Below, in pieces: positions 23,574 through 24,530 of a DNA stretch of 33,189 nt (within the stretch, counting starts at the first letter, position 1; every line of letters begins with the position of its first letter). The notes under the pieces were generated by a model that did no database searches, had not been told where the DNA came from, and saw only the letters and a program-made list of their open reading frames with translations. Position numbers and translations under genes: made by a program. The stretch covers positions 1 through 33,189 of the forward strand of contig QIFB01000035.1 of assembly GCA_003230545.1 (NCBI GenBank). Direction: 5' to 3'. This stretch comes from Gammaproteobacteria bacterium (GTDB lineage Bacteria > Pseudomonadota > Gammaproteobacteria > UBA9214).

Positions 23574-23650
23574 CGGGGTATAGCGCAGCCTGGTAGCGCG
23601 CCTGCTTTGGGAGCAGGATGTCGGGGGTTCAAATCCCTCTACCCCGACCA
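23574..23650 (+). tRNA. tRNA-Pro(UGG)
   Basis: CGGGGTA...TACCCCG-A-CCA acceptor; anticodon arm CCTGC-TTTGGGA-GCAGG; GGTTCAAATCC T-arm. Confidence 0.95.
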
Positions 23651-23715
23651 ATATGTGGTAGTAATCTGGCAGAAATATTTGCGCCCGTAGCTCAGTTGGA
23701 TAGAGCATCGGCCTT

Positions 23716-24377
23716 TAAGCGCACACTGGCATGTGTGCAGATAGGAGCCTTTATGGGGAAAGGGAACCCATAAAGTGGATCGCACTGTATCGGGGAAACC
23801 TTAACAGGTCATGCTGATGGCAATCCCGAGGAAACCGTTGGTTGACCCGTCCATTGGTTTGTGGCTAGCATTATGCAGGTATGCATCACACCAAAGACAA
23901 AGGCGACCTGGGTGTTTTGAAGGCTCAACTCGATTTATTCGAGCAAGGATATGTAATATTAAATCCGGTGACTGAGCACGCGCCATTTGATTTAGTGGCT
24001 TACAGGGACGGGGTGTTCAAACGGGTACAGGTTAAATACAAATCTGTTGACAGGACAGGCAGCATAACCGTCCATTTCCGTTCTTGCTGGACGGACAAGC
24101 ATGGTACACATATGCGGCATGTCAATAAGGATGAAATTGATCTTTATTGTATTTACTGTCCGGACACAGAGTCTTGTTATTACCTTGATCCAAGCGACTA
24201 TGGAAAATCAGTCACATTGAGGGTAGAAACACCAAGAAATAATCAGCAAAGAAATGTAAGACTTGCAGACGATTATCGCCGGGTTCCGTAGAGACTATAC
24301 GTGCGACACCTGAGATGGTGAAGAGATAGTCCAGACCACAAACCCTTCGAGGGGCGTCGAAAGACGTAGTTGGTAAG
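23716..24377 (+). ncRNA. Group I intron ribozyme (IC3-like) within tRNA-Arg(UCU)
   Basis: P1 exon CTT with IGS GAG (terminal U-G); P2 CTTTATGGG/CCCATAAAG; P3 TCGCAC (23780-85)/GTGCGA (24301-06); P4 TCGGG (23790-94)/CCCGA (23825-29); GGAAACC..GGCAATCC P4-P5 core; P6 AACC (23833-36)/GGTT (24282-85); P7 GACTA (24293-97)/TAGTC (24327-31); P8 CACC/GGTG; P9 with cGTC-GAAA-GACg; terminal omega-G at 24377. Confidence 0.93.
23881..24291 (+). CDS. Intron-encoded PD-(D/E)XK-type homing endonuclease-like protein (I-Ssp6803I/PDDEXK_5-like)
   Basis: 136 aa; KDKGDLGVLKAQLDLFEQGYVILNPVTEHAPFDLVAYRDGVFKRVQVKYKS matches an E..D-X(n)-QXK nuclease core; located inside the intron, P6 side. Confidence 0.85.
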   Translation: MHHTKDKGDLGVLKAQLDLFEQGYVILNPVTEHAPFDLVAYRDGVFKRVQVKYKSVDRTGSITVHFRSCWTDKHGTHMRHVNKDEIDLYCIYCPDTESCYYLDPSDYGKSVTLRVETPRNNQQRNVRLADDYRRVP

Positions 24378-24453
24378 CTAAGCCGAGGGTCGCAGGTTCG
24401 AATCCTGCCGGGCGCGCCATCTTTGGATGGCAAACAGATGTTAGCAGTTTAAT

Positions 24454-24530
24454 GGTGGGCGTAGCTCAGTTGGTAGAGCCCTGGATTGTGATTCCAGTCG
24501 TCGTGGGTTCGAGTCCCATCGTCCACCCCA
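24454..24530 (+). tRNA. tRNA-His(GUG)
   Basis: G-1 plus GTGGGCG/CGTCCAC acceptor, discriminator C, anticodon loop TTGTGAT; CCA encoded. Confidence 0.95.

Follow-up and report, generated by a model that had tools for sequence, protein, structure and literature searches.

A probably mobile group I intron with a putative homing endonuclease gene in a gammaproteobacterial tRNA-Arg(UCU), and its relatives in bacteria and phages

The tRNA-fMet gene of Synechocystis PCC 6803 is interrupted by a group I intron that encodes the homing endonuclease I-Ssp6803I (PMC1995217), and cyanobacterial and plastid tRNA-Leu(UAA) genes carry group IC3 introns inserted after U34. Putative group I introns in tRNA-Arg-TCT genes of Beggiatoa and Thiomargarita have been reported as interrupted genes only, with no study of subtype or mobility (PMC4853749). 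For phages, collaborative homing has been described in protein genes (PMC3984707, PMC2988022): an endonuclease that stands free targets the same conserved site at which an ORF-less intron inserts, and the two can give rise to a composite (PMC3984707). This two-parts-at-one-site model rests on two phage systems, both in protein genes, and a 2014 review placed every phage intron then known in protein genes (PMC3984707).

We analyzed a 33,189-nt stretch of gammaproteobacterial DNA (the window), in which a tRNA-Arg(UCU) gene is split by an intron. Like that of Synechocystis tRNA-fMet, it is a tRNA group I intron encoding a predicted PD-(D/E)XK endonuclease with the same fold and sequence kinship to I-Ssp6803I, but the host is tRNA-Arg(UCU) and the two endonucleases are ~27% identical by structural alignment. 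With the tRNA-Leu(UAA) introns it shares the insertion after U34, the core type, and the guide type (GAGCC), whereas those seen here are ORF-less and sit in another host tRNA. The Beggiatoa and Thiomargarita cases concern the same interrupted tRNA in related gammaproteobacteria; the Thiomargarita gene spans ~320 bp (PMC4853749) and thus has no room for an ORF such as the one in loop L6 of the window intron. A sequence-only reading of the window had regarded a UCU host tRNA as much less documented, a novelty that lapses because earlier work had reported Beggiatoaceae in which this gene is interrupted. In contrast to the known cases of collaborative homing, the target here is a tRNA gene, and the parts occur in several bacterial phyla as well as in phages. 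As far as we searched, what is new is this wider family of endonuclease and intron arrangements: in the literature, with subscription journals mostly out of reach, we found no description of the tRNA-Arg(UCU) endonuclease, its free relatives, or phage tRNA-Arg introns.

The split tRNA gene and its intron RNA

With introns disallowed, ARAGORN found no tRNA at 23681-24419, while tRNA-Pro, -His, -Lys, and -Leu were found around the site. With introns allowed, it returned a single gene, tRNA-Arg(tct), at 23681-24419, with a 662-nt intron after gene position 35 (that is, after U34), exactly where the sequence-only reading had placed both gene and intron. Removal of the intron leaves 23681-23715 and 24378-24419 as a complete tRNA-Arg(UCU). 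Once joined, the exons match the intact tRNA-Arg(UCU) of a relative (G029) with the same Pro-Arg-His-Lys array at 99% identity over 77 nt, so the join that restores the UCU anticodon is real. Many relatives, including the same-genus genome G002, have an intronless tRNA-Arg(tct) in this array, and a survey of related loci of the kind proposed earlier found both intron-plus and intronless alleles. The array is flanked by folD and tig-clpP-clpX-lon-hupB. A direct palindrome test was centered on the splice junction, whereas the inverted repeat that the anticodon stem forms has its center at position 35.

The features of the locus are as follows.

23574..23650, + strand: tRNA-Pro(UGG), array neighbor (ARAGORN; array conserved)
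23681..23715, + strand: 5′ exon of tRNA-Arg(UCU), through U34 (ARAGORN with intron option; intact homologues in relatives)
23716..24377, + strand: group I (IC3-type) intron, 662 nt, ending in G (ARAGORN, alignment, covariation, model R1)
23721..23738, + strand: extra P1-loop hairpin, GCACAC/GTGTGC (alignment and folds of relatives; Bacillales members lack it)
23744..23749, + strand: internal guide GGAGCC, pairing with the 5′ exon end as P1 (sequence; conserved in alignment; fold)
23749..23775, + strand: P2 hairpin, CTTTATGGG/CCCATAAAG (alignment; compensatory changes by eye)
23780..23836, + strand: 5′ half of the core, with P3 5′ strand (23780-23785), P4, P5, P5a, and P6 5′ strand (23830-23836) (covariation; model R1 match, 57 bits)
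23881..24291, + strand: predicted homing endonuclease ORF in loop L6, 136 aa, I-Ssp6803I type (PF11645; 2ost; fold; dN/dS)
24282..24331, + strand: 3′ half of the core, with P6 3′, P7, P3 3′ (24301-24306), P8, and P7 3′ (24327-24331) (covariation; model R1 match, 63 bits)
24332..24377, + strand: P9 region and 3′ splice site, the latter between ..GGTAAG and CTAAG (alignment)
24378..24419, + strand: 3′ exon of tRNA-Arg(UCU), CCA encoded (ARAGORN; 100% identical in G018)
24455..24530, + strand: tRNA-His(GUG), array neighbor (ARAGORN; array conserved)

The window's genome (G000) is a 1.9-Mb draft, 85% complete, whose tRNAs were inventoried through Rfam hits. The sequence-only reading had named another intact tRNA-Arg(UCU), together with evidence that the window copy is never spliced, as a finding that would count against it; no such second gene appeared among the recognizable tRNAs of this draft. 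G000 also carries another tRNA group I intron, of 239 nt, in tRNA-Leu(UAA) (L146 373-698; G000:C10:19872-20197), which passes RF00028 at 51.1 bits. The same interrupted pair, tRNA-Arg-TCT and tRNA-Leu(UAA), is reported for Beggiatoa and Thiomargarita.

Introns at the tRNA-Arg(UCU) site were collected and 33 of them aligned. Covariation was assessed in 16 diverse cores against a structure comprising P3, P4, P5, P5a, P6, P7, and P8 with the P3/P7 pseudoknot. Across 29 core pairs, 98.3% of cells were paired, vs. 86.3% in shuffles (0 of 500 shuffles as high), and 16 of the 29 pairs changed on both sides, which places the proposed P3-P8 helices far above chance. The pattern of the 3′ splice site had 0 chance matches in 100 shuffles. 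The last exon base (T23715) and last intron base (G24377) are kept in nearly all relatives, as the early description of an exon-terminal U and a terminal G would have it, but the guide base said to face that U depends on register: P1 has two possible pairings, one of which bulges an A. The extra P1-loop hairpin likewise held up, its strands (23721-23726 and 23733-23738) showing compensatory changes in relatives; it covaries in Gammaproteobacteria, while Bacillales lack it.

RF00028 is a general model, and a match to it is no defining property of the group I tRNA (IC3) class. The Rfam check that had been proposed for the intron came back negative: at strict and relaxed thresholds no group I model matched the window, RF00028 giving nothing at E ≤ 1, and a close ORF-less relative (L047) reached 26 bits with RF00028, below the cut-off of 50. 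Since the ORF splits the core and L047 scores so low, homology was shown with a purpose-built covariance model, R1, made from the window intron's relatives. R1 matched the tRNA-Leu(UAA) intron of G000 at 73 bits (E = 2e-18) and two cyanobacterial tRNA-Leu introns at 34 and 23 bits (E = 2e-7 and 2e-4), and nhmmer linked the window intron to the G000 tRNA-Leu intron at E = 3.5e-17. Because a model built from its relatives matches tRNA-Leu(UAA) group I introns, the window intron belongs by homology to the tRNA (IC3) type; the IC3 label is supported by this kinship and by established knowledge of tRNA-Leu introns rather than by a subtype model. Covariation and the intronless relatives also favor the sequence-only reading of an IC3-type intron at the tRNA-Leu(UAA) intron site.

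The reading frame in loop L6

The sequence-only reading described the intron well but overlooked the ORF that it contains. The product of this ORF matches PF11645 with 143 bits (E = 6.4e-42; cut-off 26.1), and its sole PDB relative by sequence is I-Ssp6803I (2ost, E = 1.6e-6). The predicted structure (pLDDT 89.6) also has 2ost as its best PDB match (E = 6.8e-11, TM 0.79). The catalytic D...QxK residues (D37, Q50, and K52) do not vary among 19-21 diverse relatives, and dN/dS between the window ORF and intronic relatives is 0.05-0.15. By homology and predicted fold, the L6 ORF encodes an I-Ssp6803I-type homing endonuclease of the PD-(D/E)XK kind, and selection on it is purifying; this argues that the intron is mobile.

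The ORF and the ribozyme are interlocked, since the end of the reading frame, TAG stop included, doubles as the P6 3′ strand and reaches as far as P7 (GGGTTCCGTAG followed by AGACTA). This overlap is conserved in the alignment. A search of plasmids with the endonuclease gave no match.

Arrangements in bacteria and phages

A scan of bacterial genomes with the endonuclease yielded 70 loci. The ORF lies within an intron that interrupts tRNA-Arg(UCU) at the position seen in the window in 33 of them, from Gammaproteobacteria, Bacillales, Saprospiraceae, Ignavibacteriota, Rhodothermales, Acidobacteriota, and, at one locus, Campylobacterota; these taxon names are as in the records, several of which are metagenome-assembled genomes that may be mis-binned. 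Five Bacillales loci have an ORF-less intron of 286-292 nt with the endonuclease gene just outside the tRNA, 3′ of it. At 18 more, the gene adjoins an intronless tRNA-Arg(UCU), mostly at most 80 bp away (13 cyanobacteria, Nostocales included, 3 mycobacteria, Nocardioides, and 1 gammaproteobacterium, L026). ARAGORN intron calls for other tRNAs at these loci (Ser, Phe, SeC, etc.) were rejected, as the same UCU join could be read directly. The free cyanobacterial endonuclease (L056-L070) has a longer C terminus, with a total of ~212-239 aa.

Sister endonucleases adjoin tRNA-Thr or tRNA-Ala in other phyla. Related endonucleases directly adjoin other tRNA genes at L066, L071, L074-L076, L078, L209, L210, L212, L213, and L215, and the tRNAs so accompanied are Thr, Ala, Gly, Met/Lys, Ser, and Asn. 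This pattern suggests a larger group of free endonucleases targeting tRNAs.

Among 369 gammaproteobacterial genomes, drawn evenly, 7 had the endonuclease and 10 the intron 3′ end, several of them ORF-less. Within the window's own family, the window, G006, G010, and G020 have an intact endonuclease, those of G018, G008, G012, and G009 are broken, and other members have none; intact, decayed, and absent endonucleases in one family fit a homing cycle. Frameshifts or stops interrupt the endonuclease ORFs of L083/L166 (G018), L055, and L057, decaying copies whose introns are otherwise readable. At L009 and L010 (G006 and G010), an intron with an intact endonuclease is accompanied by tRNA exons that have lost part of their sequence, with GGTTCGAA repeats adjoining; among the hits checked, these two genomes showed no other tRNA-Arg(UCU), and the deletions may reflect true rearrangement or misassembly.

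The viral contigs are metagenome-derived, and phage genes were checked in part of them. In a profile search, the endonuclease stood free beside an intronless tRNA-Arg(UCU) in 25 of 37 contigs; Synechococcus phage Sf-FR1 and Acinetobacter phage Herod have this arrangement. A separate pattern scan found the intron 3′ end in 56 viral contigs. The split tRNA-Arg(UCU) was readable in 49 of these, and 47 of the 49 introns measure 197-231 nt, too short for the ORF. These ORF-less phage introns fall into two sequence types, some being closer, by eye, to tRNA-Leu introns than to the window type. The endonuclease lies inside the intron in L195 and L276, the latter of which may be host DNA.

In one phage lineage, with flanks 76-93% identical up to the tRNA, both elements alternate at one locus: L093 has the endonuclease without the intron, L284 and L252 have the intron without the endonuclease, and L092/L248, a single contig, has both: its intron is ORF-less, the endonuclease lies beside it, and a terminase is close by. 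A free endonuclease and ORF-less introns thus occupy the same site within one lineage, as in collaborative homing. The same exchange of intron and endonuclease is seen between L200 and L250 in another phage lineage.

Phage tRNA genes hold further introns. The tRNA-Leu(UAA) of Agrobacterium phage Atu_ph07 is split by a 278-nt group I-like intron (L300 653-1014), and that of a 735-kb huge phage by one of 205 nt (L298 620-910). The tRNA-Arg deposited for Microcoleus phage My-WqHQDG is 286 nt long and includes an intron of 213 nt; ARAGORN gives its anticodon as CCU (L297 502-787). A 484-kb huge phage (LR756508) carries a tRNA-Arg(UCU) with a 175-nt intron (L304 1074-1325) and a relative of the endonuclease elsewhere in its genome.

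Proposed mechanism, history, and meaning

The best explanation of the locus, to which we give a probability of about 0.88, is a mobile, self-splicing group I intron of tRNA (IC3) type with a homing endonuclease, a composite that probably originated by collaborative homing. That the intron splices and homes, that the enzyme cuts, and in what order the parts came together, we infer from sequence comparisons. The intron RNA would fold into P1-P9 and excise itself from precursor tRNA-Arg(UCU): attack by an external G after U34 would be followed by attack of the freed exon after the terminal G, restoring the UCU anticodon. The L6 product would cut an intronless tRNA-Arg(UCU) through its anticodon arm, whose sequence is by nature an inverted repeat, and the intron would be copied into the intronless gene when the break is repaired. 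Judged by its position and homology, the free endonuclease would cut at the intron insertion site as well. A free, phage-borne endonuclease and an ORF-less intron would thus have used the same tRNA site, the endonuclease gene being taken into the intron later, and more than once.

Endonuclease trees were rooted on the endonucleases at other tRNAs. The tRNA-Arg(UCU) endonucleases form a clade with support of 100/99, within which the state of lying inside the intron changes 5-7 times, 3-4 of these changes being forced by well-supported branches. Because the arrangement changes this often within the clade, target choice seems to predate association with the intron, and the parts appear to have joined or parted several times. 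With 141 columns and long branches, the trees support their deep branches poorly, which leaves the direction of change uncertain. The outside genes of Bacillales and L026 nest among intronic ones, which indicates that movement out of introns also occurs.

That nesting would also suit a different origin, itself compatible with a working mobile intron, in which endonuclease and intron were always one element and the free and ORF-less forms are breakdown products; ORF-less introns such as L171, which retain the ORF-ending sequence GGGTTCCGTAG, point the same way. We nevertheless think this origin unlikely. Cyanobacterial, actinobacterial, and many phage endonucleases at intronless tRNA-Arg(UCU) genes fall outside the main groups of intronic ones, free-standing genes also make up the outgroup at other tRNAs, and one of the two types of ORF-less phage introns is close to tRNA-Leu introns.

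It is considerably less probable that the intron is fixed and vertically inherited, as many cyanobacterial tRNA-Leu introns are, with the ORF a relic or a splicing helper. ORF-less introns do persist in Gammaproteobacteria, Bacillales, and phages, and fusion of the ORF's 3′ end to P6/P7 means that ORF and core are constrained together. However, a fixed intron does not sit well with a distribution so patchy (3′ end in 10 and endonuclease in 7 of 369 genomes, with a same-genus genome intronless), nor a relic with invariant catalytic residues, nor a helper with the same protein standing free beside intronless tRNA-Arg(UCU) genes, where there is no splicing to help. A dead copy, with the tRNA unspliced and AGA read by another tRNA, might be suggested by the decayed copies in the same family (G018, G008, G012, G009) and the damaged exons around the G006/G010 introns, but is highly improbable given the window's intact exons, core, and ORF, the purifying selection on its endonuclease, and a G000 draft (85% complete) in which no other tRNA-Arg(UCU) was found.

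A mobile intron probably assembled by collaborative homing bears on the old question of how group I introns acquired endonucleases. The two-part assembly model becomes testable because phages and bacteria hold parts, pairs, and composites, all at a single tRNA site, and some carriers are cultured (Bacillales, Nostocales, cyanophage Sf-FR1, and Acinetobacter phage Herod). Group I introns do occur in phage tRNA genes, contrary to the 2014 review (PMC3984707), and a tRNA-Arg(UCU) can seem absent from genome annotations. We lean toward a broader reading in which the tRNA-Arg(UCU) anticodon is a common homing site, where phage-borne endonucleases and ORF-less introns spread independently and were repeatedly fused and separated, across phages and at least five bacterial phyla. 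If this is true, the family would offer a natural series of all the steps of mobile-intron formation, in tRNA genes.
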